Source of the DNA: a virus | DNA: 43,735 bases | IMG/VR virus record: IMGVR_UViG_3300021957_000078 | Span: 1 to 43,735 of that record | Reading direction: 5' to 3' (one strand) | Shown here: one piece after another, positions 9,790 to 42,745 of the stretch | How positions within the stretch are numbered: the stretch's first letter is position 1 | Layout: each line of letters begins with the position of its first letter | Position numbers and translations under genes: made by a program | The notes under the pieces: model-generated | What the model was told of the DNA's origin: nothing | The model's database searches: none | The model's input: only the letters and a program-made list of their open reading frames with translations

Positions 9790-10905
9790 ATGGGTTTTTT
9801 AGATAATCAAACAGATCAAGCTTACTACGCTGGTTCCCAAAGCTTTAGATGGGAAACTGGAGATCCACAATATTTCACTATAACAACTATAGATCCTTCG
9901 CCAACTGCTGTAGGAGATTTTTATGTCTATATAAATGGTAATGTTGTATCTACAACAAACATATCTTTTACTAATTCAAATAAAAGAGTAACAATAAGTA
10001 ACATAACATTATCTAACAACGATGTTGTAACAGTTCAATTAAAAGAAAAATTGTATGGCGAGTATAGATACACATCTTTATCTGACATAGTAAATAATTT
10101 TATGTTTTCATATGTAGGCGAAGGGAAAATAATTAATAGAGCAAATAGAAGAGATGTATTATTTCACACAAAAAGAGGTATACAAGAGTTTGCTTATGAC
10201 ATTACAAAGGTAGAAAAAATACAAGAAGTTGAAGTTGGTCACACATTGTCTATACCTATGCCAAAAGACTTTGTTAGTGCTACAAGTATTTCTTGGATAG
10301 ATGGTTCTGGAATAGAACATATGATTACAAAAGGTTCCAATACATCTAAACCAACAGAGGCTATTGCTCAAGATGATGAATTTAACTACACTTATGACAG
10401 TGATGGTAGTATAATTAAAACAACAGCTCTTACTAATGAAAGATTCAAAGGTTTTAACAATTCACAATTAACATATGCCCATGGAAATGATGACTATTTT
10501 TACAATAGTGACTTTCCATCAGAAAGATTAATTGAAGCTGGAAAGAGATATGGTGGAGATCCACAACACATGAATAGAAATGGTATATATATAATAAATC
10601 AATATAACGGTACTATAAATTTTAGTAGTGAATTAAGAGGAGCTTTAATAACATTAAAATATATATCTGATAGTATGGGTACTGATAATGAAATGAAAGT
10701 ACACAAGTTTGCCGAAGAAGCTATATATAAACATGTCGCGTATTCAATGCTTTCTACTATGGCAAATATACCAGAATATATTGTCAATAGATATAAGAGA
10801 GATAGAAGAGCATCTATGAGGCAAGCTAAAATAAGATTATATGAAATAAATATACCTGAATTAACTCAGGTAATGAGAGGTAAATCAAAACATATAAAAC
10901 ATTAA
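9790..10905 (+). CDS. Tail tubular/adaptor-type structural protein
   Basis: A 371-residue protein 3 nt after its neighbour. Residues 20-90 form a small beta-sandwich (GDFYVYINGNVVSTTN followed by VTISNITLSNNDVVTVQL). The segment RDVLFHTKRGIQEFAYDITK and the C-terminal helix region (HKFAEEAIYKHVAYSML) resemble connector/tail-tube proteins of marine phages. I infer a T7 gp11-like position at the head-tail junction. No catalytic motif was seen. Confidence 0.5.
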   Translation: MGFLDNQTDQAYYAGSQSFRWETGDPQYFTITTIDPSPTAVGDFYVYINGNVVSTTNISFTNSNKRVTISNITLSNNDVVTVQLKEKLYGEYRYTSLSDIVNNFMFSYVGEGKIINRANRRDVLFHTKRGIQEFAYDITKVEKIQEVEVGHTLSIPMPKDFVSATSISWIDGSGIEHMITKGSNTSKPTEAIAQDDEFNYTYDSDGSIIKTTALTNERFKGFNNSQLTYAHGNDDYFYNSDFPSERLIEAGKRYGGDPQHMNRNGIYIINQYNGTINFSSELRGALITLKYISDSMGTDNEMKVHKFAEEAIYKHVAYSMLSTMANIPEYIVNRYKRDRRASMRQAKIRLYEINIPELTQVMRGKSKHIKH

Positions 10906-17961: not shown

Positions 17962-20900
17962 ATGAATGAATTTTACATAGTAGACGGGAAACTATTTGAG
18001 GTTTCACCAGACAGAAAACAAGATTTTCTGCTTAAATATCCACAAGCTAAATTAAAAGACGAACAAACAGATTTAGCAAAGACAAAAGGAACAGAAAAGG
18101 GTGTGACTGTTCCGGAAAATGCAACACCCAATACGGAATCAAACTTGGCAGCTGGTTTTTTGGAGTTCAAACTTCCAACTCCAGAAGAAATAAAAATAAA
18201 AAATAAAACAGAGGAAGATTCTGAAGAATTAACTTTAGGTCAAGGTCTTTTAAATGAGTTTAAAAACGCTGGAGATAGATTAGGTTTAATAGACAATTTT
18301 TGGAGAGGTGATGATCCTTCTGTACAATTAGCTTTGACAGCTATGAACGAAGAGTTGTATGGAAGAAAAGGTATGAAAGCATTATTAAATGCTGGAAGAG
18401 ATTCTTTTAATGCTAAGGAAAGATATTTACAGTTTGAAACCGTTGAAGATTTAATAAAAGATGTTAAAGAAAAACAACAAAGCAATAGACCTGTTTTTGC
18501 TTTAGCAGATGCTATTTCAGAAAAAGATCCAGGTAAATTTGCCGTTGGTGTTCTTGGGACAGTGGCTAATGCCATAGCGTCTGTTGGTTATGGTTTGGGT
18601 ACGGGTTTCACAGGTTATGCATATGAATACGCTGCTGAAAACTATATAGAATACAACGAGAGATTAGCGAAAAGAAAAAATAAAAGTTTAAAACAGTTAA
18701 TATCTGATAATGAAGAAGAAACTATAATTCCTTTTTCAATAGCTGCAGGACAAGCTGGTATAGAAAACTTAGGTCTAGGTAAAATACTAGGTAAAGTATT
18801 AAAAAAAGGAAGAAACAAAATAACTAAATATGCCTTAGATATTGCATTTGCCGGTGGTGTAGAAGCGGGTACAGAATGGGGTCAATATGGTTTAGGAGAG
18901 TTTAATAAACTTTTAGGTGAAGGTAAAACCAAAACAGAAGCACTACAAGGATCTTTATATAGAATGTTAACTGAAAAAGATGCATATGAGTCAATGTTAC
19001 GTGGAGGTTTTGGAGGTGCTGGAATCAGAGGAGGTAGATATGCATTAAGAGCTTCATCTTCGGTAAGATCTACAAAAGATTCAAATGAAATACAAAGAAA
19101 TATAAACTCAATTGTATATAATAAGAAAGTTAGTGTAGAAACTAAAGACGAAGACGTTAGAATAAGTGCTGAAGCTAATATAGAAATAGCTAAAGCAAAC
19201 ATTAAAAGATTAATAGATATATCTAATGACAAAATAAAAGATTTAGATGAGAGTTCTCAGAAAAAAATATATGACATTAATGTTGAAACAGAAAGACAAG
19301 TATCTAAATTAAAAAATCTAAAAGAAAAATTAGATAATAATAAAATAAACAAAAGAGAATATTTAACTTACTTAGATAAGGTAAAAAAAGATTATAACGT
19401 AAGTGTATTAAGAATAAACGGGGTTTTAGCTAAAAATAGAGGTATAAACTCTTTAATAAATAAAAGCACTAGTTTTGGATTAAAAATGGCAGAAGCTTTA
19501 AATATAAAAGCTAAAAGCTATGAAACAAACAAAGAATTTGCTAACGCTATAGGAAAAACAGAATCAGAAGCAAGCCAAATAGGAGGTGCCTATATAAATG
19601 GTAAAATATACTTCAATAAAGACGCTGCTAGTAAAACTTTTCAAATAAATATTGGAGCACACGAAATACTCCACCCTATTTTAAACTCACAAATAGGTGA
19701 TAAAAAACAACAAGCAAAAATAGTACAAGGTGTTAAAGAAAGATTAACATCTAGACAAATAAAAGAACTTGACGCTATAATGGAAAATAGAGGTTATGGT
19801 GTCGATTCAGGTAAGTATGAAACAGAATATTTAAATGTAATGTCTGATGCTCTTGCCAAAAACGAACTTTCTTTAGATAAAACAATATTAGAAAAAATAG
19901 CTGATTTTTTTAAAAGTTTATTTAAAAAATATGACATGGATATTGGTTTTGAAAATGCAGACCAAGTTTATAATTTTTTAAGTGAGTTTAATAAATCTGC
20001 TAAAGAAAATAAAGTTTCAAAAAAAGTCTTAGATGCTATAGACAAAGTAAAACTAAATAAAGAATTAGAAAGTGAATCTAGACAATTTTCACAAGCAGAA
20101 AAAAATTCTATAATTGATGATTTAGCTGGACCAAATACTAAAGAAGAAGGTTACAGTATTTCTAAAAAACAATATGAAGAAGATGGTTATTTAGCTGATG
20201 CATATAACAGAATTATAGAAGGTAATTTAATGGATGCGCTTATTGTTCGTGGTATACAGGGTAAAACTGTTTCTGGTAAACCTATAAGTAATTTTATTGA
20301 AGATGTTAAAAAAGAATTAACAGATTTGATAATAAAATTTAATCCTGAACAAAATGATTCATTTTCAGGTTATTTAAATGGACAATTACAAACATGGGTA
20401 AAAAGTAAAGTTCTTAAACAATATGCACAATCTAAATCTAAAAGTTTAGATGTTGTAGCTGGAGAAGTTGGATCTGTTGCTGAACCTGGTATAAATGAAG
20501 ATTTTTCAGAGTTTGACACAAAAGAAAGTTTTGATGAAAATATTGAAAATAAAATAATACCTTCTAAGGTTTTTGGTATAGAATCTGATGTAAAAAATTC
20601 TGTAAAAAATTTATTCCCAATGCTAACACTAGATCAAATGACTTTTGGTAGTGTTCCATTAATTGCATCTCCACATATTGCTGAAAAAGCAGGTGTACCA
20701 GTTGGTAAAATAACAGATCCTAAAAAAAATCTAGGATCAGGAGAATTTAAAAAAGCACAAAAGTTTTTATATAAACATATAGATGATTTTATAAAACTTT
20801 TACCACCACTTACTTCTAATAAAGAAGTAACTGATCAAAATGCAGAAGGTAAATCAGTTCAAATAGCCACTAAATTAATTAATGATGAAAAATTCAATTT

Positions 20901-23900
20901 AGATCTTTATGAACCAGCCAATAGAAGGGTTGGTGGCGCACAAGGTAACCCACAGTTTAAACTTCCTAATAATTTTTTATCTAATGAATATAAAGAAAGA
21001 GTTTTAAAAGCTTTTGGTATGGATTCAGAAGGTGGAGCTTTAATAACAGATGTTAGAGGAGAAATTTTAGATGGTAGAAGTCCTGAATCACAAAGGGTAA
21101 AAGGCGCGTTAGCTTTACTTTCTAAACTCACAACAAACACTGAACTAAGGATACAAATGCTAAAAGCTGGTATAAATCCTAATGTTATAAATAATGTTGC
21201 TGCTGGTAAATCTGAATTTCAATTTAGTCAACAACCTGATAATGACATTGTTATTCCAGAGTTAACTAACATGATATTTAATAAGCGTGAATATTTTAAA
21301 TACACTAGAAGTTTATATGAAAACCCTGAGTTTTTAGAAGAAACAAGTAAGATATATGATATTGACTTAAATAAAGAAGATGTAAAAAACATATCTTTAT
21401 ATAAATATGAAAATAATGTACAAAAATGGGATTATGAAAAACTTTTAAAATTAAAAAAATATCAATTTGAGTTTTTAAATTCAATGCCTGATTTGTTTAA
21501 AAGAGAAAGTTTTTTAGCAAGATCAGCAGCTGGTTTTAATGGTTTTAATTCTTTATTTAATAATACACTAGATCTTTATACATCAGAAAGTAAAGTTCTT
21601 GTAGACAAAAACAATAAAATAATAAGAGACGATAGAATAGAAAAAATAACTGTTTTTGATCAAGAAATAAATAAAAACATATCTACTAAAAATTTAAAAT
21701 CAAATAAAAATTTATCTAAAAACGATGTGAGTTTTATAAATGATTTAAACAATCACATAAAAAATAACAACAAAAAAATAAACACATTATATACTTTAAA
21801 AAAATTACTAAACGATCCAACATTATTAGAAGATACAAAGAAAACAGCTATACTTGATTTTAAGTCATCAAAAGCAAATGAAACAAGGAATGGTGTATAT
21901 AATTTGATGAATCAATATAGACTTGCTTTTGTTAAATCTGGAAAAAACAAAAATGAAATAAAAGAAAGGCTAATGTTTATTACTCAAAGCTTGGCTTTTG
22001 AAAATTCTTCTATTGATGGTTTAAATAATTTATCTTCTTTAGATTTATCTGTACTTAAAAAAGGTACTGAAAGATATTCTATACAAAACTATGACTCAAG
22101 TAGTAAAATAACTAAACAAATTTTATTTGATATAATGTCAGGTAAAGAGCCTGTTGTTAGTACTAATAATTTTAAGTCAGGTGTAGTACCTACAAATATA
22201 TTAGAACAAACTCCAAAACTTAGTCAAGAAGAATCAATAAAAATTATTAAAAATAAAACTGATAAAAACGAACAGTTAAGTCAAGTTAATTTTAATGATG
22301 AAGTAAAAACATTGCAATTAGAATCACAAATGGGTTTAATGTTATCGGCAAAAGACAAAAGATATTCTTTAGATGACATAATTGATGTTGCAACTTCAAA
22401 ACAATTAGCTGCTACTAGGAAAAAAATGTTTAGAATAATTCCACATAGCGCAAACGATTTAGCTGGTCTTCTTTATGGTTTTCTTGGTAAAGGAAAAAAA
22501 GGAGAAAAACAATTAGAATTTTTTGTTGATAATTTAGTAAAACCTTTTAGTAAGGCAATAATGTCATTAGACATAGCTAGACAATTATCAAGTAGAAAAT
22601 ATAAACAGTTTTTAAAAGATAATCCTAATTTTAACAAAGACATGGAGCAAGAAACTGGAATTTCTGGTTTTAACTATGATCAAGCATTAAGAATATACCT
22701 CTATACTAAAAATGGTTCTAAAGTTCCTGGTGTTAATGATGTAACGCTACAAAAAATAAAAGGAAAAATAATAACATATCCAGGTAATAAAATGTTAAAA
22801 TATGCTAGTAATTTATCTAGTATTATGAGACAAGATTCATATTGGATAGATCCAGATGTTAACTCATGGCAAACTGATACTATTAGACAAGATATACTTA
22901 GATCAATAGATCAACTTTCAAGAAAAAAATTCTTAGGACCTTTTCTTGAAAATAAAAAGGCTATTTTTAGTGAAAACAACATAAATAAAATAAGAGCAAC
23001 CTACGGTCAAGATTTTTTAGATCCATTACAAGATATTTTAACTAGAATGGAAAGTGGAAAAACTAGAACAAGTGGTCAATCTAAAATGGTAAATGGTATG
23101 TTAAATTGGATAAGGGGTTCTGTTGCGTCTACAATGTTTTTAAACACTAGAACAGCAACACTACAAACATTATCTACTTTTAATTACATAAACTGGTCAG
23201 ATAACAATATATATCATTCTGGTAAAGCTTTAATAGGTAATCCCGCACAGTGGGCAACAGATTTTAAGTATATAATGAATTCTGATTATTTAAAAGAAAG
23301 AAGAGGAGGTTTAAGAACCGATGTCAATGAAGCGGAAATTGCTGATGCTATAAAAAGAAATAAAGGATTTAAAGGTGTTTTAGGTTTAGTTTTACAAAAA
23401 GGTTTTGTTTTTACTAAAGCTGGTGATGCCTTTGCAATTGCCGCGGGTGGAGCTAGTTTTTACAGAAATAGAATAAATACATATACAGCAAAAGGTTTTT
23501 CAAAAGTAGAAGCACAAAGAAAAGCTTTTGTAGATTTTCAAGAGGTTACTGAAGAAACTCAACAGTCTGCAAGAGCAGACAGGCTATCTATGGAGCAAAC
23601 AAGCTCAGAGGGAAGGTTATTTTTAGCATTCCAAAATACTCCAATGCAATATACTAGATTAATAGAAAGAGCTGCTTTAGATTTAAGAAATGGTAGAGGT
23701 AACCCTAAAGAAAAGGTAAGTAAGATATTATATTATTCATTTTTACAAAATATAATGTTTTCTGTATTACAACAAGGTTTATTTAGTATGTTATTTCCAG
23801 GACAAGATGAAGATGAAGAAACAAAAAGAAATGAAAGAAAATTTGGTTACATGGCAAACAATATGGTTGATACATTAATTAGGGGTACGGGTGTTAAAGG

Positions 23901-24396
23901 TGCTGTTTTTTCAATGGTAAAAAATGTTAGTAAAAAGTTATATGACGAAAACAAAAAAGTTGAGGAAGGAAAAGGACAATTTGATATAGCTGCAATATTA
24001 GCAGAAGTCGCAACGGTTGGCCCAGCAATAAGTATTAAAACTAGAGATATATACGATGCTTTGAAAGATTACAAGTATAAAAGAAAATCTTTTGAAAAAA
24101 TGGGTATATCTATAGAAAATCCTGTATTAGATATGGTAGGTAGTTCTGCTTCATTTTTTAATGTGCCTTTAGATAGGGTTGTTTCAAAAGCTAGAAACGT
24201 TAAAGACGCTTTAGACGTTGAAACAGAAACATGGCAAAAAATAGCATTATTATCTGGTTGGAACAGGTGGACCGTAAACTTTGAACCAGATGATAGTTAT
24301 TACTCTACAAAATCAAAAAGTAAAAGAAAATCAAAAAAAATTAGACAAAATAGTTCTGCATCAAGTAGATATTCAAAAAGAAAAAAATATAATTAA
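17962..24396 (+). CDS. Giant virion protein with an HEILH metallopeptidase motif
   Basis: A 2144-residue protein, the largest in the window, likely an internal/ejected protein that takes the tape-measure or gp16 role. Residues about 190-225 and 345-360 are Gly/Ala-rich and hydrophobic and could insert into membranes. A zincin-type motif, H567-E-I-L-H571, lies in IGAHEILHPIL, with a downstream TEYLNVMSDAL that could supply a third ligand. Residues about 700-1150 and 1480-2100 are helical, with hydrophobic segments near 1755-1850 and 1925-1945. The C-terminal 40 residues are Ser/Lys/Arg-rich. Whether the protease cuts phage proteins, host envelope proteins or peptidoglycan cross-links cannot be read from the sequence. 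No lysozyme or transglycosylase signature was seen. Confidence 0.65.
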   Translation: MNEFYIVDGKLFEVSPDRKQDFLLKYPQAKLKDEQTDLAKTKGTEKGVTVPENATPNTESNLAAGFLEFKLPTPEEIKIKNKTEEDSEELTLGQGLLNEFKNAGDRLGLIDNFWRGDDPSVQLALTAMNEELYGRKGMKALLNAGRDSFNAKERYLQFETVEDLIKDVKEKQQSNRPVFALADAISEKDPGKFAVGVLGTVANAIASVGYGLGTGFTGYAYEYAAENYIEYNERLAKRKNKSLKQLISDNEEETIIPFSIAAGQAGIENLGLGKILGKVLKKGRNKITKYALDIAFAGGVEAGTEWGQYGLGEFNKLLGEGKTKTEALQGSLYRMLTEKDAYESMLRGGFGGAGIRGGRYALRASSSVRSTKDSNEIQRNINSIVYNKKVSVETKDEDVRISAEANIEIAKANIKRLIDISNDKIKDLDESSQKKIYDINVETERQVSKLKNLKEKLDNNKINKREYLTYLDKVKKDYNVSVLRINGVLAKNRGINSLINKSTSFGLKMAEALNIKAKSYETNKEFANAIGKTESEASQIGGAYINGKIYFNKDAASKTFQINIGAHEILHPILNSQIGDKKQQAKIVQGVKERLTSRQIKELDAIMENRGYGVDSGKYETEYLNVMSDALAKNELSLDKTILEKIADFFKSLFKKYDMDIGFENADQVYNFLSEFNKSAKENKVSKKVLDAIDKVKLNKELESESRQFSQAEKNSIIDDLAGPNTKEEGYSISKKQYEEDGYLADAYNRIIEGNLMDALIVRGIQGKTVSGKPISNFIEDVKKELTDLIIKFNPEQNDSFSGYLNGQLQTWVKSKVLKQYAQSKSKSLDVVAGEVGSVAEPGINEDFSEFDTKESFDENIENKIIPSKVFGIESDVKNSVKNLFPMLTLDQMTFGSVPLIASPHIAEKAGVPVGKITDPKKNLGSGEFKKAQKFLYKHIDDFIKLLPPLTSNKEVTDQNAEGKSVQIATKLINDEKFNLDLYEPANRRVGGAQGNPQFKLPNNFLSNEYKERVLKAFGMDSEGGALITDVRGEILDGRSPESQRVKGALALLSKLTTNTELRIQMLKAGINPNVINNVAAGKSEFQFSQQPDNDIVIPELTNMIFNKREYFKYTRSLYENPEFLEETSKIYDIDLNKEDVKNISLYKYENNVQKWDYEKLLKLKKYQFEFLNSMPDLFKRESFLARSAAGFNGFNSLFNNTLDLYTSESKVLVDKNNKIIRDDRIEKITVFDQEINKNISTKNLKSNKNLSKNDVSFINDLNNHIKNNNKKINTLYTLKKLLNDPTLLEDTKKTAILDFKSSKANETRNGVYNLMNQYRLAFVKSGKNKNEIKERLMFITQSLAFENSSIDGLNNLSSLDLSVLKKGTERYSIQNYDSSSKITKQILFDIMSGKEPVVSTNNFKSGVVPTNILEQTPKLSQEESIKIIKNKTDKNEQLSQVNFNDEVKTLQLESQMGLMLSAKDKRYSLDDIIDVATSKQLAATRKKMFRIIPHSANDLAGLLYGFLGKGKKGEKQLEFFVDNLVKPFSKAIMSLDIARQLSSRKYKQFLKDNPNFNKDMEQETGISGFNYDQALRIYLYTKNGSKVPGVNDVTLQKIKGKIITYPGNKMLKYASNLSSIMRQDSYWIDPDVNSWQTDTIRQDILRSIDQLSRKKFLGPFLENKKAIFSENNINKIRATYGQDFLDPLQDILTRMESGKTRTSGQSKMVNGMLNWIRGSVASTMFLNTRTATLQTLSTFNYINWSDNNIYHSGKALIGNPAQWATDFKYIMNSDYLKERRGGLRTDVNEAEIADAIKRNKGFKGVLGLVLQKGFVFTKAGDAFAIAAGGASFYRNRINTYTAKGFSKVEAQRKAFVDFQEVTEETQQSARADRLSMEQTSSEGRLFLAFQNTPMQYTRLIERAALDLRNGRGNPKEKVSKILYYSFLQNIMFSVLQQGLFSMLFPGQDEDEETKRNERKFGYMANNMVDTLIRGTGVKGAVFSMVKNVSKKLYDENKKVEEGKGQFDIAAILAEVATVGPAISIKTRDIYDALKDYKYKRKSFEKMGISIENPVLDMVGSSASFFNVPLDRVVSKARNVKDALDVETETWQKIALLSGWNRWTVNFEPDDSYYSTKSKSKRKSKKIRQNSSASSRYSKRKKYN

Positions 24397-24398
24397 CT

Positions 24399-24563
24399 AT
24401 GGAATGGCAAGATATTAAATTAATGGCCTTTAATGGTGCAACACTAACACTTTCTATGACAGAAATAGAAACAATATTAAAAATAATATTATTGTTAGTT
24501 TCTATAGGTTTCACAGTAGCACGCTGGTATGACATACACAAGAAAAATAAAGCTAATAAGTAG
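24399..24563 (+). CDS. Small single-TM holin-like protein
   Basis: A 54-residue protein starting 2 nt after the giant gene. Residues about 22-41 form one hydrophobic segment (TEIETILKIILLLVSIGFTV), followed by a short basic cytosolic-type tail (HKKNKANK). Size, single membrane span, charged C-terminus and position ahead of a cassette ending in an endolysin suit a class III-like holin or pinholin. Its last 35 nt overlap the next gene in another frame, so expression of the two is tied. From memory, similar small proteins occur in marine phages. The holin call is inference. Confidence 0.5.
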   Translation: MEWQDIKLMAFNGATLTLSMTEIETILKIILLLVSIGFTVARWYDIHKKNKANK

Positions 24564-24993
24564 TTTATTATTTTGCGTTGTAATATCTGCACAAGATATT
24601 AAAATAGACAATATAAAAAACTCAATTCAAACAGGCCCGTTGGTTAACAACAGGGATGTTGGTTTTGGGTTAAAAAACATTTTAGAAGAATTAGTTCAAG
24701 ACTTGGATTATAATTTAAATGACAAGGCTATTGATGCTTTAACTGTTGAATTACTTTATTTTGACGTAAAAAGAACACAATCAAATGTTGCGTTGTATAG
24801 CAAATCATCAAGTCAAACCGAAATTATTGCGTCGGCAAAATACAAAAAGAAAAAAGTAAAAGTAAAAGGCACAGCAAAAGACATTACAACTTCTTTAATT
24901 TTATTAAATGAACAAGGGCAGTTTACACAAAATAGTGTAAGTGTTGCATTAAAAAAACTATCTGAAAACATTATTAAGAAATTAAAACTATGA
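24529..24993 (+). CDS. Secreted or periplasmic protein in the CsgG cassette, unknown
   Basis: A 154-residue protein with a clear signal peptide: basic MTYTRKIK, then hydrophobic LISSLLFCVVISA, with a likely cut before QD (about residue 21). The mature part has a helix (VGFGLKNILEELVQDL), three strands (LTVELLYFDVKRT, TEIIASAKYKKKKVKVK, DITTSLILLNEQG) and a closing helix. This arrangement resembles small envelope lipoprotein folds that work with outer-membrane machines, but I do not recognise a family. It overlaps the holin-like gene by 35 nt and the next gene by 4 nt (ATGA). A role in assembling the CsgG-like pore is a guess from context. Confidence 0.6.
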   Translation: MTYTRKIKLISSLLFCVVISAQDIKIDNIKNSIQTGPLVNNRDVGFGLKNILEELVQDLDYNLNDKAIDALTVELLYFDVKRTQSNVALYSKSSSQTEIIASAKYKKKKVKVKGTAKDITTSLILLNEQGQFTQNSVSVALKKLSENIIKKLKL

Positions 24994-26612
24994 AAAAACT
25001 ATTGTTTTTATTACTACCATTATTCTGCTTAGCGCAAGATTTAAAACTTGATCACAGTTATACAAACGCTGCGGATTTTGAGGTTGGTGATACTATAACG
25101 ATAAAGTTTAATACCATACAGGTTACAGAGGGGGCAAATCCTAATCTCTACATGTTTGATTATGAGTACAATAATAAATTATTACAAAAAATAACACATC
25201 GGTTTAAAGTTACGGATAATGAAGCTAATACGAGTGCACAAACCTCATTAACACATTGGGATGGTTATAAGTTTAAAATTTTAAGTACCTACGATGAAGA
25301 TAATCTTTCTGCACAATATTTACACGGTTGGCAAAACAGAACACAAGTAGAAGGAGACACTGATTCTTATCCTACGGATAATGACTGGTCTGTTGAAAGA
25401 ATTACCATTCAAGACGGTGTTGGAATTACATATAACAATACATTAATTGAAGTTGATTTTAAAATTAAAGATAAAATAAATACAAACTATAGTAATTATA
25501 ATAATGTAACACATCTTAACTGGATGAAAGCCCACGACAACTCTGATAACACAGCTTATGATGTTGATGCAATGCAACAAAAAATTACTTTAGCTGGTGT
25601 TGAAGGCGGAGATGCTGGGAGTGTTACTATAAATTTAAAAACAGAAAACGACAAACCAACACATTATAAATATAACATATTAAGTAATAATAGTAGTGTA
25701 GCAAGTGGTAATTTTGACGCTAATTCACAGGCTATAGTTACAGGTTTAGAAAACGACGTTAAATATACTATTGATATAACAGTCGATAATGATGCTGCTA
25801 GCGATTGGTTGGATGATGTTGTAACTGTTACGGATGTTTTTTTAGTATTTAAAGAAGCTATTAAAGCTGGTAGTAACCCAGGTGGGCAAGCTAATACTTT
25901 TACACATAGTATACAATTTTTATTAGGCGAAGTTAATAACAGCGGTAATGTAGATTTTGATGACTCTTACATTTTGCTAAGTCATATAATGAATGAAAAC
26001 GTTAGCGAATGGTTTACAAACTCTACAAACGGAGCTAAAAATGTTTGGGGCGAAAAAAATCAATATGGGTATTCCACAAATGATTATTACTTTGGGCAAA
26101 GAAAAGATTTTACTCCTACTGATTCTAATAAGGTTTTTGATTTTGGTCATGGACTTATTGGAGATGTAGATTTTTCACATTCATTTGAACCAATAGTACA
26201 AAGCGAGAACAGTGGTGTTGCAAGAGGTGTTGTTCAGAATTCATCTGAAAATTTAAATTTAGATATTTCCACAAGTTTAGTTAACGATAAAGTTGAATTA
26301 GTAGTTGAGCTCGAAAAAGAAGATTTAGCGGGTATGCAATTTGTAATTCAATTTGATGATGCTTTATTAGAATTTGAAGAAGTTCAATTCAATACTGGCA
26401 ATTTATTAACTAATTTTGCAACAGAGCGAAACAATAAATTATATTTTGGCAGTCTAAGTGTTGAGAACCAAGAAAATATAAAACCTGGTAAACCGTATAA
26501 GATTATATTTAATACTAAACAAACAATAACTAATACATCTGGTTTAGTTTATTTTCAAACTACAGATGCTGTAACAGAAGAAGGAACTAAAGTAATTTTA
26601 AAAATACAATAA
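24990..26612 (+). CDS. Secreted modular protein with cohesin-like and dockerin-like parts
   Basis: A 540-residue exported protein. Signal peptide: MKKLLFLLLPLFCLAQ, cut before or at Q16. Residues about 25-200 look like a cohesin-type beta-sandwich (FEVGDTITIKFNT, then LYMFDYEYNNKLL, and later TLIEVDFKIKDK). Residues about 205-265 resemble a fibronectin III/Ig strand set. Residues 311-333 (LLGEVNNSGNVDFDDSYI followed by LLSHI) match a dockerin calcium-loop repeat, and residues 389-398 (LIGDVDFSHS) look like a degenerate second repeat. Residues about 420-540 are another cohesin-like domain (VELVVELEKEDLAGMQFVIQ). Carrying both partner types suggests self-association or surface assembly. It may be a substrate of the CsgG-like pore or of host secretion. 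Confidence 0.65.
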   Translation: MKKLLFLLLPLFCLAQDLKLDHSYTNAADFEVGDTITIKFNTIQVTEGANPNLYMFDYEYNNKLLQKITHRFKVTDNEANTSAQTSLTHWDGYKFKILSTYDEDNLSAQYLHGWQNRTQVEGDTDSYPTDNDWSVERITIQDGVGITYNNTLIEVDFKIKDKINTNYSNYNNVTHLNWMKAHDNSDNTAYDVDAMQQKITLAGVEGGDAGSVTINLKTENDKPTHYKYNILSNNSSVASGNFDANSQAIVTGLENDVKYTIDITVDNDAASDWLDDVVTVTDVFLVFKEAIKAGSNPGGQANTFTHSIQFLLGEVNNSGNVDFDDSYILLSHIMNENVSEWFTNSTNGAKNVWGEKNQYGYSTNDYYFGQRKDFTPTDSNKVFDFGHGLIGDVDFSHSFEPIVQSENSGVARGVVQNSSENLNLDISTSLVNDKVELVVELEKEDLAGMQFVIQFDDALLEFEEVQFNTGNLLTNFATERNNKLYFGSLSVENQENIKPGKPYKIIFNTKQTITNTSGLVYFQTTDAVTEEGTKVILKIQ

Positions 26613-26971
26613 TGAAAAAACTATTTATACTATTATTATTTATAAGCTGTTCGGAAACTGTATATATTGAAAGACCTATACAAGAAGTACCTGAATCTTT
26701 ATTTATGCAAGAAACTACAGGGCTTAAATTAGAAAGTTATATAGTGCAAGACAAAGTCAGGATAAACACAAAGTTGCCGTCTGATGGTAAATACAGAATT
26801 AAGATATTAGATTTTTCAAATAAAATAATAAACCAAGAAATAATAACCGGAAGAGAGGGCGATAATATATTAAACATATACGTTAACTCACTGCCTGTAA
26901 GTTCTTACACAGTTGAATTGTATACTAATACAAATAGTTTTATAGGTAGACAAACATTTTCAATAAAATAA
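26612..26971 (+). CDS. Small lipoprotein with a type IX sorting-like beta domain
   Basis: A 119-residue protein with a lipoprotein signal, MKKLFILLLFISC, making Cys13 the likely lipidated residue. The mature part has DKVRINTKLPSDGKYRIKIL, then GDNILNIYVNSLPVSSYTVE and a final FIGRQTFSIK. This pattern resembles the Por-secretion (T9SS type A) C-terminal sorting domain of Bacteroidota, where a Gly/Asn strand is followed by a LxxGxY-like turn and a Kxxxxx-K end. It may be an outer-membrane anchor, or mimic a sorting domain. With the next gene it could also act as an o-spanin/i-spanin-like pair. The start is the base shared with the previous stop (TAATG). Confidence 0.6.
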   Translation: MKKLFILLLFISCSETVYIERPIQEVPESLFMQETTGLKLESYIVQDKVRINTKLPSDGKYRIKILDFSNKIINQEIITGREGDNILNIYVNSLPVSSYTVELYTNTNSFIGRQTFSIK

Positions 26972-26972
26972 C

Positions 26973-27203
26973 ATGAAAGAATTAAAGAACCAAATAATAA
27001 CAGCAATAGGATTAATTATAACTGCTGGGGCGGCTTTAATTATAGCTAATATGGAGGCTATATTTAGTCCTGAAGATGATTCACCACCGCCAACAATGGA
27101 ACAAACAATAACAATACCACCAAGTGTTGTTAAAGATACTTTGGTTATAACTAAAACAGTTATACAAAAACCAAAGAAAGAAGAAAGAGAGATAGATTGG
27201 TAA
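26973..27203 (+). CDS. Small single-TM protein with Pro-rich tail
   Basis: A 76-residue protein, beginning 1 nt after its neighbour. Residues about 8-27 form one membrane segment (ITAIGLIITAGAALIIANME). An acidic SPEDDSPPP follows, then a Thr/Val/Pro-rich stretch and a basic end (KKEEREIDW). The topology would be a short cytoplasmic N-terminus with the tail in the periplasm, as in i-spanins or accessory holins. It is too short to cross the periplasm unless the tail is extended. Function unknown; the cassette context favours envelope work at lysis. Confidence 0.55.
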   Translation: MKELKNQIITAIGLIITAGAALIIANMEAIFSPEDDSPPPTMEQTITIPPSVVKDTLVITKTVIQKPKKEEREIDW

Positions 27204-27204
27204 C

Positions 27205-27924
27205 ATGAAAAAATTTATACTATGTGCGATATTTGTATCGGCTGTGGCTTCTGCTCATAGCCAAGTAATTGGAAAAACAACCACCGAAGATTATGTCGGT
27301 AGCTTTGAATCAAGAGAGTCTATATGGAGTGTGCCAGAATACAATGGCGACCCCGTGTCTGTAGCCTTGCTTAACATTGGTGTTACTGAGGAAATATTAA
27401 ATCAGTATCCTGAATTAGGTGATTATAGAGTTGGATTAGGTTTAACTAATATAACTGTAGCCTTCTTAGATGAAACGTTTCGTTTTGAGTTTGTAGAAAC
27501 AAGAGATGAAATAAAAGATAGAATGATTAAACAATTCAAAGCAAGTGAAAAAGGTTTTACAGCTAACGTAATAAATCCTATAGGTAAAATAGTTTTAGCT
27601 AAATACTTTTGTTATATAGAAGTCTACGATTTTAGTATATCAGAAGATGAAACAATTAATTTAAAAGACGGTATTAAAAATAAATTAGTTACAAGATTAG
27701 GATTACAAGTTAAGCTGGTTGATTCTGAAACTGGTTTATACATGACAGGATCCGGCTTAGGTAAAGCTACAACCACAAGAGAATTGACTTTATTAAATAA
27801 TGAGAATTTAGAAGATGTTAAGTTTAATCAATCATCAATTGGTACATCGACTAAGAAAGCTTTAGAAACTGCGGTTGCTAAGGTTGTTAAACGCATGATA
27901 AGAAAAAAGATATTTGATCATTAA
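27205..27924 (+). CDS. csgG: CsgG-family outer-membrane secretion pore
   Basis: A 239-residue CsgG-like protein. CsgG forms a ring-shaped outer-membrane channel for curli subunits in type VIII secretion. Signal peptide: MKKFILCAIFVSAVASAHSQ, with a probable cut before Q20, and no lipobox Cys, unlike E. coli CsgG, which is a lipoprotein. Visible family features are VSVALLNIGVTEE, GLGLTNITVAFLDETFRFEF (the regular CsgG alpha/beta start), VTRLGLQVKLVDSETGLYM (the typical 'vdv-TGe' strand) and a C-terminal helix ALETAVAKVVKRMI. Phage-borne csgG (and csgF) genes are known in marine phages. No csgA/B/E/F homologue is obvious next to it. It overlaps the barrel gene downstream by one base. Confidence 0.75.
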   Translation: MKKFILCAIFVSAVASAHSQVIGKTTTEDYVGSFESRESIWSVPEYNGDPVSVALLNIGVTEEILNQYPELGDYRVGLGLTNITVAFLDETFRFEFVETRDEIKDRMIKQFKASEKGFTANVINPIGKIVLAKYFCYIEVYDFSISEDETINLKDGIKNKLVTRLGLQVKLVDSETGLYMTGSGLGKATTTRELTLLNNENLEDVKFNQSSIGTSTKKALETAVAKVVKRMIRKKIFDH

Positions 27925-29339
27925 TGAAAAAAATAATAATATTATTATTATTTTCCTCAAGTATATATTCTCAAACATTAGTACAAGCCTTTGCGGATAG
28001 ATGTACCGGAGAGATTAAAAGAGTTTCGATTCAAATGGAAGGATACACAACAGTATCCTTTTATAATAGAACAAAAACTTTTACTGCTAATGATTTTTAC
28101 AGTGGTGCATTAAGAACTTGGATGGAGCAAACGTATGCTTGGTGGTATGCATTATCAGCATGTTCCACAGCTCAAACAACTCAAACAACTACGCAAACTT
28201 CCACATCGAATAGTAACAGCGGTTCTGATTCTAGTGGCGGATCTTCTGATAACTCAGGTGATACTGGAAGTGACAACAGTGGGGACAGCGGCAGCGGAGG
28301 AGATGACGGCGGAGGAGACTCTGGAGATAATGGTGGTGATTCCGATGACGGAGGTGGTGACTCAGATGATGGAGGAGGCGATAGTGATGATGATGGAGGC
28401 GGAGATAGTGACGATGATGGTGGTGACAGTGATGATGATGACAGCGGTGGAGATGATGACAGTGATGATTCTGAAGAGGAAGAACAGCAAGAAGAAGAGA
28501 AAGAAGAAGAAGAAGAAGAAAAGGAAGAAGAAAAAGAGGAGGAGGAAGAAGAAGAGGAGGAATCTGAGGAAGAATCTGAAGAAGAAGAGGAAGAAGAAGA
28601 AAAAGAAAAGAAAAAAAAGAATACAAATCCTATAATAATATCAGCAAATCTAATGCGTATGTCAGGATTAGATGGTGCTGCAAATCAAGTAATAGGATTA
28701 GGTTTTGCACAATCATCAATGAATGGTGAATTTAATTATTCTGCTAATATGATGATATGGGATAACTTAAAACAAATAAGTTTAAGTGGTTCAAGAGGTC
28801 ATACGTTTTATAGGTATGACAAAAAAGTTCCTGTTATAATTAAAGATAACGGTGAGGAATATGTATTTGGCCATTTTTATGACAAAGGAAGTATAGCTAA
28901 TGTACAAACATTATCCGCAGGATTAATGTATATGTATGGGGTTTATAATGCTTCGTTCGGTATTAGTAATGTATATATTGGACAAAAAGAAAATAAATGG
29001 AAAGGATTTGTTGGTGGTGTATCTGCTTCTGCAAACGTATTATATAGTAAAGATGACTGGAATATAATGCCAGCATTTATATTTTTTGGCACTAAACCAT
29101 TTCCTTTCAAACGTTTTACTGTATCACCTATGTTAGCTACCGCCTTAACACCAGTGAGCTACAGTACATTAGATAATGGTTTTGTTTTTAATGAGCATGC
29201 ATTATTTGTAGGAGGTGCAAACTTTGATTTTGCTATAACTAAAACATTTAGAATGAATTTAGGTTTTAACATAGCTAAAAGCACAGATGCATTTCCATTA
29301 ACATATTCAATAACAATTGGCGGTAAATTTAAATTATAA
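27924..29339 (+). CDS. Putative outer-membrane barrel protein with acidic linker
   Basis: A 471-residue exported protein in three parts. A signal peptide (MKKIIILLLFSSSIYSQ, cut about residue 16-17) is followed by a short domain to residue about 85 with two Cys (C28, C80), aromatic-rich (MEQTYAWWYAL). Residues about 86-233 are low complexity: Ser/Thr/Gln, then Asp/Gly/Ser, then almost pure Glu/Lys. Residues about 234-471 have alternating strands (GEFNYSANMMIWDNLKQISL, YNASFGISNVYIG) and a C-terminal KFKL, fitting an 8-12-strand barrel. From memory, the first and last parts resemble proteins that follow csgG in marine phages, while the acidic middle looks unusual. It could be the partner of the CsgG pore or a surface-exposed superinfection block. 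The antisense and +2 frames here are shadows. Confidence 0.6.
   Translation: MKKIIILLLFSSSIYSQTLVQAFADRCTGEIKRVSIQMEGYTTVSFYNRTKTFTANDFYSGALRTWMEQTYAWWYALSACSTAQTTQTTTQTSTSNSNSGSDSSGGSSDNSGDTGSDNSGDSGSGGDDGGGDSGDNGGDSDDGGGDSDDGGGDSDDDGGGDSDDDGGDSDDDDSGGDDDSDDSEEEEQQEEEKEEEEEEKEEEKEEEEEEEEESEEESEEEEEEEEKEKKKKNTNPIIISANLMRMSGLDGAANQVIGLGFAQSSMNGEFNYSANMMIWDNLKQISLSGSRGHTFYRYDKKVPVIIKDNGEEYVFGHFYDKGSIANVQTLSAGLMYMYGVYNASFGISNVYIGQKENKWKGFVGGVSASANVLYSKDDWNIMPAFIFFGTKPFPFKRFTVSPMLATALTPVSYSTLDNGFVFNEHALFVGGANFDFAITKTFRMNLGFNIAKSTDAFPLTYSITIGGKFKL
28201..28620 (+). repeat. Low-complexity tract encoding Asp/Gly/Ser then Glu/Lys runs
   Basis: Degenerate GAT/GGA/GGT/AGT codon repeats (units such as GGGDSDD) extend to about 28470 and then turn into GAA/GAG/AAA runs to about 28620. 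The codons vary between units, so selection seems to act on the protein composition rather than on recent copy-number slippage alone. Such a tract may still change length between strains. Confidence 0.7.
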
Positions 29340-29341
29340 AA

Positions 29342-29800
29342 ATGATTAGTGAACACATTAGTAAAAAAGAAGCAACGTTTAGTGCAACAGCAACTAGAAA
29401 AGGAATAGACAATACACCTAGCGAATATGAGTTACAAAACATGGAACTTATTGCTGAGAAAGTATTTGAACCCTTAAGAAAAGCTGTAAATGGCCCAATA
29501 AAGATTAATTCATTTTTTCGCTCAGAAGAATTGAATAAAGCAATTGGAGGAAGTAGTCGATCGCAACATTGCCAAGGACGCGCAATGGATTTAGATGACG
29601 TGTATGGCTATATGTCTAATAAAGATATGTACAATTATATAAAAAATAATTTAGATTTTGATCAAATGATTTGGGAATTTGGTACGGAAGATAACCCTGA
29701 TTGGGTTCACGTTAGTTATGTAGATGTTGATTCAAATAGGCGGCGTTGTTTGCAAGCTTATAAAGATGAAAACAATAAAACTTGTTATAAAGAAATATAA
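29342..29800 (+). CDS. M15-family peptidase endolysin
   Basis: A 152-residue peptidase that probably cuts peptidoglycan cross-bridges (D-Ala-D-Ala carboxypeptidase-like fold, peptidase M15A). The zinc site is readable as S74-Q-H76-C-Q-G79-R-A81-M-D83 (SxHxxGxAxD), and W121-V-H123 gives the second histidine. INSFFRS around residue 60 is the usual strand ahead of the site. The length fits a single catalytic domain without a wall-binding module, and no signal peptide is present, so it needs a holin for access. It is the last gene of the rightward block, starts 2 nt after the barrel gene and ends just before the convergent terminator. Confidence 0.8.
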   Translation: MISEHISKKEATFSATATRKGIDNTPSEYELQNMELIAEKVFEPLRKAVNGPIKINSFFRSEELNKAIGGSSRSQHCQGRAMDLDDVYGYMSNKDMYNYIKNNLDFDQMIWEFGTEDNPDWVHVSYVDVDSNRRRCLQAYKDENNKTCYKEI

Positions 29801-29803
29801 AAA

Positions 29804-29825
29804 AAGGGGCTTTTTAAGGCCCCTT
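29804..29825 (-). terminator. Terminator between convergent transcripts
   Basis: Stem AAGGGGC (29804-29810) with GCCCCTT (29819-29825) and an 8-nt loop. On the minus strand the hairpin is followed by seven T residues, a textbook intrinsic terminator 6 nt after the nrdA stop. On the plus strand it is followed by AATTATTA, so it may also stop the rightward transcript, but less efficiently. Confidence 0.8.
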
Positions 29826-40246: not shown

Positions 40247-40618
40247 CTAATATACTATTTCTATTTTTACATTTTGCCATTTACCATATTTAATTTCTTT
40301 GTTTACTAAAAAATCTATACGTTTTTTCCATCTTTTATTCATGCGATCTTGTACTGTCCAATCTCCATCAAAAATACCTGTACCATCAATACAAACTTTA
40401 GTTCCAAATGTATATCCTAAAGCTTCAAGATCTCTTGACACGGCTATCCATCTATGACCTTGTGGATTATCAGGATTTATTTTTGAATTACTAGCCGTAA
40501 TAAAAGGTGTGTCATCAGTTTGACCTGGCACAGCGTGATATATAGTTGCTGTGACTAACTCGCTGATTATCAGTATTATATATAAAGCTTTAAACATTTT
40601 TATGTACTTTTTTAGCAA
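40247..40618 (-). CDS. 3D-domain (RlpA/MltA-like) cell-wall protein
   Basis: A 123-residue protein with an N-terminal membrane/signal segment (FKALYIILIISELVTATIY). The double-psi beta-barrel 3D domain follows: GHRWIAVSRDLEALGY, then a GTKVCIDGTG loop, D91-R (VQDRMNKRW) and R100-I-D102-F. 3D domains, named for three aspartates, occur in lytic transglycosylases and wall-loosening factors. The second ATG at 40597 (116 residues) is equally likely. It lies in the leftward block and not in the lysis cassette, so it may act in early wall remodelling. Confidence 0.6.
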   Translation of the reverse strand: MLKKYIKMFKALYIILIISELVTATIYHAVPGQTDDTPFITASNSKINPDNPQGHRWIAVSRDLEALGYTFGTKVCIDGTGIFDGDWTVQDRMNKRWKKRIDFLVNKEIKYGKWQNVKIEIVY

Positions 40619-42663: not shown

Positions 42664-42672
42664 AGTCTGTAG

Positions 42673-42745
<73 letters not shown>

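Follow-up and report, generated by a model that had tools for sequence, protein, structure and literature searches.

We find that positions 24399-29800 of a 43,735-nt viral DNA record (IMG/VR IMGVR_UViG_3300021957_000078, positions 1 to 43,735; analysed whole and hereafter called the window) hold a lysis cassette, of which the genes w1 and w8 are the ends and the six genes between them (w2-w7) are a distinct, phage-specific module. As the best explanation of this module, we tentatively propose, at a level somewhat short of probable, a complex that bridges the inner and outer membranes and acts at lysis. An earlier note on this DNA had pointed to eight tightly packed envelope-type genes forming one conserved cassette, and this description holds: the eight open reading frames lie on one strand, overlapping or 1-2 nt apart (Table 1), and the set, far from being absent or scattered in relatives, recurs in the same order in more than 80 phage contigs.

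Table 1 Genes of the cassette and the hairpin that follows them.
Feature	Position	Strand	Length	Description
w1	24399..24563	+	54 aa	Holin-like, one TM segment (cluster 44); first gene of the lysis cassette
w2	24529..24993	+	154 aa	Secreted ABD/CsgG-fold protein (predicted), core family F2
w3	24990..26612	+	540 aa	Secreted, cohesin-like domain, core family F1
w4	26612..26971	+	119 aa	Lipoprotein, T9SS sorting-domain-like fold, family F4
w5	26973..27203	+	76 aa	N-terminal TM, Trp-ended tail, core family F7/F3
w6	27205..27924	+	239 aa	Predicted CsgG fold, signal peptide, no lipobox, core family F0
w7	27924..29339	+	471 aa	Outer-membrane barrel candidate, core family F12
w8	29342..29800	+	152 aa	M15 peptidase, probable endolysin, outside the conserved module
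Terminator-like hairpin	29804..29825			9-bp stem, 5 of its pairs GC; found on either strand; between convergent operons

The cassette comes after the virion gene block and closes the late operon just 5′ of the terminator. Between positions 9900 and 29850, the plus strand gave just three further terminator-like matches, each of them weak and located before the cassette, so that the latter is probably transcribed with the late genes. Values of dN/dS of 0.016-0.17 against loci L006 and L003, wherever a homologue was called, indicate that w1-w8 are real genes, w6 being the most constrained (0.016-0.06). The w6 segment is 99% identical to its L003 counterpart with a pS of 0.19, lower than that of the adjoining module genes (0.39-0.66), and the virion proteins of the window are 33-79% identical to those of L003; the segment looks recently exchanged. 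Other features of the window include a 2144-aa probable virion protein (17962-24396) with an HExxH-type motif (GAHEILHPI) as in metalloproteases, a small secreted protein outside the cassette with a likeness, by eye, to 3D/RlpA-type wall proteins (40247-40618, minus strand), and a tRNA-Met (CAT) gene (42672-42745, minus strand).

The two ends of the cassette resemble lysis genes. The w1 protein has a transmembrane segment at residues 16-34 and has a homologue in gp36 of Flavobacterium phage elemoE (HMM E 1.4e-20). We take w1 to be holin-like because the gp36 gene overlaps the elemoE gene annotated as a D-Ala-D-Ala carboxypeptidase (putative endolysin); among known holin families, w1 matched only phrog_920 (E 0.06). 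The two phages also have related terminases (44%), whereas elemoE gave no w6 match at E 0.01 and nothing module-like was recognised around its lysis region. At the other end, w8 contains an M15 domain (Peptidase_M15_3, E 3e-16, 59.7 bits against a cut-off of 23.2) and matches the endolysin family phrog_894 (E 3e-29); it is an M15 peptidase and probably serves as endolysin. The enzyme had been counted as part of the set; we rejected it as a core member, since M15 genes occur in only 9 of 83 loci and unrelated enzymes fill the slot elsewhere.

Two of the module proteins are predicted to share a CsgG-type fold. The best Foldseek matches of the w6 model were all CsgG structures (4uv2/4uv3/6l7c; E 3e-7, probability 1.00, full-length alignment), and on this model w6 is a CsgG-fold protein; the model itself is of moderate quality (pLDDT 72; TM-score to CsgG 0.42-0.48), and other ABD-superfamily proteins rank next. 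The Pfam CsgG profile (PF03783) did not match w6 and scored the homologue in L073 below its cut-off (E 6e-5; 18.3 against 20.8 bits). Single-sequence hhalign of the w6 family against Escherichia coli CsgG was not significant (P-value 0.12); in that alignment, the VDxxTG motif of the family pairs with CsgG 168-188. Among 42 homologues, 45 alignment columns are invariant. The signal peptide of w6 is not followed by a lipobox, nor does the family alignment show a conserved Cys at its end. The region of w6 matching the first CsgG hairpin (145-165) is 34% charged, as opposed to 14% in CsgG, and the region matching the second is without a lipid-like face. Of the CsgG-type pore proposed earlier we accept the fold resemblance and not, at present, the pore, since w6 has no lipobox, a charged hairpin region and no convincing lipid-facing hairpins. 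The smaller w2 carries a signal peptide and is ABD/YajG-like (Pfam Lipoprotein_16, E 8e-4, below cut-off). Its family is related to that of w6 (hhalign P 97.6%, E 4e-12), and by this profile comparison w2 is a shorter relative of w6. Sequence searches with the w6 and w2 profiles against solved structures gave no meaningful match, and the Pfam families CsgE, CsgF and curlin were unmatched by all eight cassette proteins.

The w5 protein has the features of a tether. A transmembrane segment (residues 7-25) is followed by a low-complexity, Pro-rich tail that ends in Trp, and this C-terminal Trp is present in all 57 distinct homologous sequences and in all 65 loci with full flanks (at least 4.5 kb on both sides). 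The two w5 families, F3 and F7, are related (hhalign P 97.3%). In w7, AlphaFold2 predicts an N-terminal domain (about 18-77), a disordered charged linker (81-231) and a barrel of about 14 strands (237-470; pLDDT about 85), and Foldseek returned FapF, KdgM and NanC (E around 1e-6), FapF being the best (E 7e-7). The model thus bears out w7 as an outer-membrane barrel candidate, as had been suspected, and HMM matches to it accompany the w6 family throughout the loci. The order of N-terminal domain, linker and barrel is also that of the amyloid-secretion barrel FapF, which has 12 strands against about 14 in w7; yet KdgM and NanC match w7 nearly as well and no Fap genes were recognised. As generic barrels and porins score alike, we do not claim kinship to FapF.

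The remaining two proteins are of adhesin-like composition. The w3 protein consists of a signal peptide, a beta-rich N-terminal part, a dockerin-like motif and a C-terminal cohesin-like domain. The Cohesin match (425-536; E 2e-4, 22.1 bits against a cut-off of 24.1) is sub-threshold in w3 and clear in its relatives in the large phage L083 (5e-9) and in Flavobacterium phage immuto (gp015). A secreted cohesin/dockerin protein, as the earlier note had it, is thus supported for its secretion signal and, by way of relatives, for cohesin, while the dockerin part is weak: Pfam dockerin profiles gave no match in w3, and in relative L051 a lectin protein matched Dockerin_1 with E 0.11. Similarly, the supposed type-IX-sorting-like lipoprotein w4 has its lipobox, and matches DUF3244 and Por_Secre_tail weakly (the latter with 16.8 bits against a cut-off of 27); the sorting domain is clear, with E 2e-11 and 2e-8, in relatives, exceeding the cut-off in L083 (2e-11) and immuto gp015, and reaches E 6e-6 in L034. 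The w4 family aligns with the C-terminus of the large-phage w3-type proteins (hhalign E 3e-4, P 38%). Large phages combine the cohesin and sorting domains in a single protein; immuto has both in gp015, with gp014 corresponding to the front part of the w3-type protein, and the window divides them between w3 and w4. That the same domains are split differently among phages supports the module being one functional unit. In relatives, C-type lectin and laminin-G domains occur in proteins adjoining the module. Genes of two further kinds lie close to it: a secreted DNA/RNA non-specific endonuclease, within the module or next to it in 16 loci (cluster 17, e.g. L021 7419-7967; Endonuclease_NS, E 6e-24), and, in several large phages, genes that we presume to be thioesterase-like (hotdog; cluster 22, L061 5269-5685 and L078 648-1061).

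Scanning viral contigs with w6 and its counterpart in immuto gave at least 215 relatives. We retrieved 80 of them, on contigs of 9.7 to 343 kb, the shorter of which are fragments. Homologues of w2, w3, w5, w6 and w7 were all present in 65 of 65 full loci, and in 32 of 65 that of w4, which large phages do not keep in lipoprotein form. Such counts are not independent, as many of the loci are near-copies. One carrier of 113 kb has the module and no homologue of the window virion proteins (phmmer). Of 395 Bacteroidota genomes, 394 gave no match to the w6 profile, the single positive being a phage-like contig of 254 kb (C291) in a metagenome-assembled genome; the w7 profile found the same contig and one marginal match. 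Together with a restrictive w6 pattern scan over 84,980 species, the w6 search left that phage-like contig as the only find. On these results, we rejected a cellular origin of the module. Among 50,697 phage records, a w6 relative occurred only in four records of immuto, which is the one cultured carrier, and the hosts of module carriers are probably Bacteroidota. In immuto, whose host is Flavobacterium sp. LMO8, the homologues of w5, w6 and w7 are gp016, gp017 and gp018, respectively.

To its lysis-gene neighbours the module is linked in a recurrent way. Endolysin-type genes of five unrelated families (M15, GH19, Amidase_2, the phrog_3000/33083 type and DUF5675) lie within about 7 kb of the module in 65 of 83 loci (63 loci plus L025 with Amidase_2 and L022 with DUF5675, whose lytic role is inferred), in many cases at the same place behind the barrel gene. 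Of 25 whole records with GH19, 17 have the enzyme no more than 5 kb from w6, against 2.3 expected by chance; thinned to one record per module type, the figures are 11 of 19 against 1.8. Holin-like families are present in 60 of 65 full loci. The endolysin is nevertheless not part of the conserved set and the module also travels without one nearby: in immuto, holin and GH19 endolysin are 30 kb away, and GH19 is 14-154 kb from w6 in six other records.

In the window, w5 beside w4 (by hydropathy and lipobox, respectively) has the layout of a two-component inner-membrane/outer-membrane spanin, and it is the only pair of spanin-like topology there. A simple hydropathy and lipobox scan showed no canonical spanin topology elsewhere in the window, an exclusion that is weak because part of the genome may be missing from the 43.7-kb record (a close relative has 65 kb). 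Two other loci, L069 (4012-4857) and L077 (3921-4511), carry a protein with a lipobox and a C-terminal transmembrane segment, the unimolecular-spanin layout, just upstream of the module. In about seven loci (cluster 60, e.g. L022 11651-12076), a secreted coiled-coil protein with a C-terminal transmembrane segment adjoins endolysin-type genes, and G001 has a second lipoprotein after its endolysin.

We prefer an action at lysis because w5, with its tether-like build, and the leashed w7 point to a link joining the two membranes. The complex of w2-w7 would cross the envelope and open or weaken the outer membrane. Anchored in the inner membrane, w5 would extend its flexible tail outward, and the invariant Trp may dock on a partner on the outer-membrane side, either w6/w2 or the N-terminal domain of w7, which would hang in the periplasm on its disordered leash of about 150 residues. 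Once the endolysin has cut the wall, the bridge would pull on, fuse or permeabilise the outer membrane in a spanin-like manner, with w3 and w4 acting at the outer membrane or beyond. This reading draws on the place of the module in the window, flanked by a holin-like gene and an endolysin where the late transcript ends, on its nearness to unrelated endolysin families, above chance for GH19, and to holin-like genes, on its presence in the 113-kb phage with other virion proteins, on the spanin-like layout of w4 with w5, and on the view of Kongari et al. that an o-spanin role could fall to an outer-membrane protein (PMC6139136). Against it count the distant lysis genes of immuto and the six other records, the cohesin, lectin and T9SS-sorting domains, for which lysis gives no obvious reason, and the spanin-type, coiled-coil and second lipoprotein genes of the loci named above. 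The earlier suggestion that pore and barrel replace spanins thus gains from the linkage to lysis genes, but since L069 and L077 carry a spanin-type protein alongside, the module is not a simple spanin replacement in all phages.

The earlier note had also offered export of a surface polymer or adhesin, and this must be weighed closely against lysis, position and linkage favouring the latter and the cohesin, lectin and sorting domains the former. Late in infection, the module would then anchor or export cohesin and lectin proteins at the cell surface, with the CsgG-fold proteins and the barrel as machinery, and either mask receptors, against superinfection and the sticking of progeny to debris, or hold neighbouring cells together. 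We judge this possible, though less likely than not. It gains from the clear Por_Secre_tail and Cohesin domains of large-phage w3-type proteins and immuto gp015, the separate T9SS-type lipoprotein w4 of the window type, the lectin and laminin-G domains of adjoining proteins, the amyloid-export proteins CsgG and FapF as best fold matches of w6 and w7, and the several phages in which the module lacks an endolysin. Precedents exist in curli ‘sibling capture’ (PMC7029224) and in T9SS domains on phage proteins (PMC7468147). However, neither a curlin-type nor another evident fibre gene was found, the window type showed no recognisable lectin-domain gene, the FapF match does not clearly exceed generic porins, w6 has neither lipobox nor lipid-like hairpins, and surface display predicts neither strong lysis-gene linkage nor an inner-membrane tether.

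It is unlikely that the module merely adjoins the lysis genes because both are late and envelope-directed, having an envelope function of its own such as keeping the envelope stable or working with the host T9SS. The module does stay intact while the identity and position of endolysin and holin vary (GH19 is far away in 7 of 25 records), but its linkage to unrelated endolysins is far above chance and is kept across several genome layouts, including that between holin-like gene and endolysin. A role as virion or tail-associated adhesin or host-range proteins is very improbable: the module follows the virion genes and lectin-like domains occur in phage tails, but the signal peptides, lipobox and predicted barrel point to the envelope, and phages with unrelated virion genes share the module.

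Parts of the module recall known systems. CsgG and CsgF of SAR11/OM43 phages, with both lysis and ‘sibling capture’ adhesin hypotheses, are already published (PMC9004378, PMC7029224). Of the module itself we found no description, nor a detailed account of the immuto genome, in the open papers searched. Like the myophages HTVC008M and Melnitz of those hosts, the window has a phage CsgG-fold protein without curlin genes; in contrast to them, it lacks CsgF and the lipobox, w6 has no named phage relative besides immuto at E 0.01, the hosts appear to be Bacteroidota, and the set combines two CsgG-fold proteins with a barrel, a cohesin protein and a Trp-tailed transmembrane protein. With two-component and unimolecular spanins the module shares an outward-tailed inner-membrane protein and an outer-membrane lipoprotein beside holin-like and endolysin genes, but it has more genes, a barrel and secreted adhesin-like proteins, its lipoprotein is not conserved as such in large phages, and its bridging is putative. 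Relatives of w3 share cohesin and a type A sorting domain with T9SS cargo and cellulosome-like cohesin-dockerin proteins, but are phage-borne, with a weak dockerin match and no cellulosome enzymes.

The means by which many phages of Bacteroidota, and ‘spanin-less’ phages in general, get through the outer membrane are an open question (PMC6139136). No spanin was found in 91 of 677 phages, Bacteroides and Croceibacter phages included, and Kongari et al. suggested that an outer-membrane protein could serve as o-spanin in spanin-less phages (PMC6139136); in another survey, Bacteroidetes phages use unimolecular spanins only (PMC12596118). Whether the module is a new kind of outer-membrane lysis system of Bacteroidota phages, in which CsgG-fold proteins, a leashed barrel and a Trp-ended inner-membrane protein would do the work of spanins, we regard as doubtful at present. 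Should surface display be true instead, the module would represent a widespread phage programme that remodels the surface of dying cells. As an unvarying gene set found only in phages, with very different genomes, the module makes the question of outer-membrane breach testable, its handles being an invariant C-terminal Trp and one cultured carrier.
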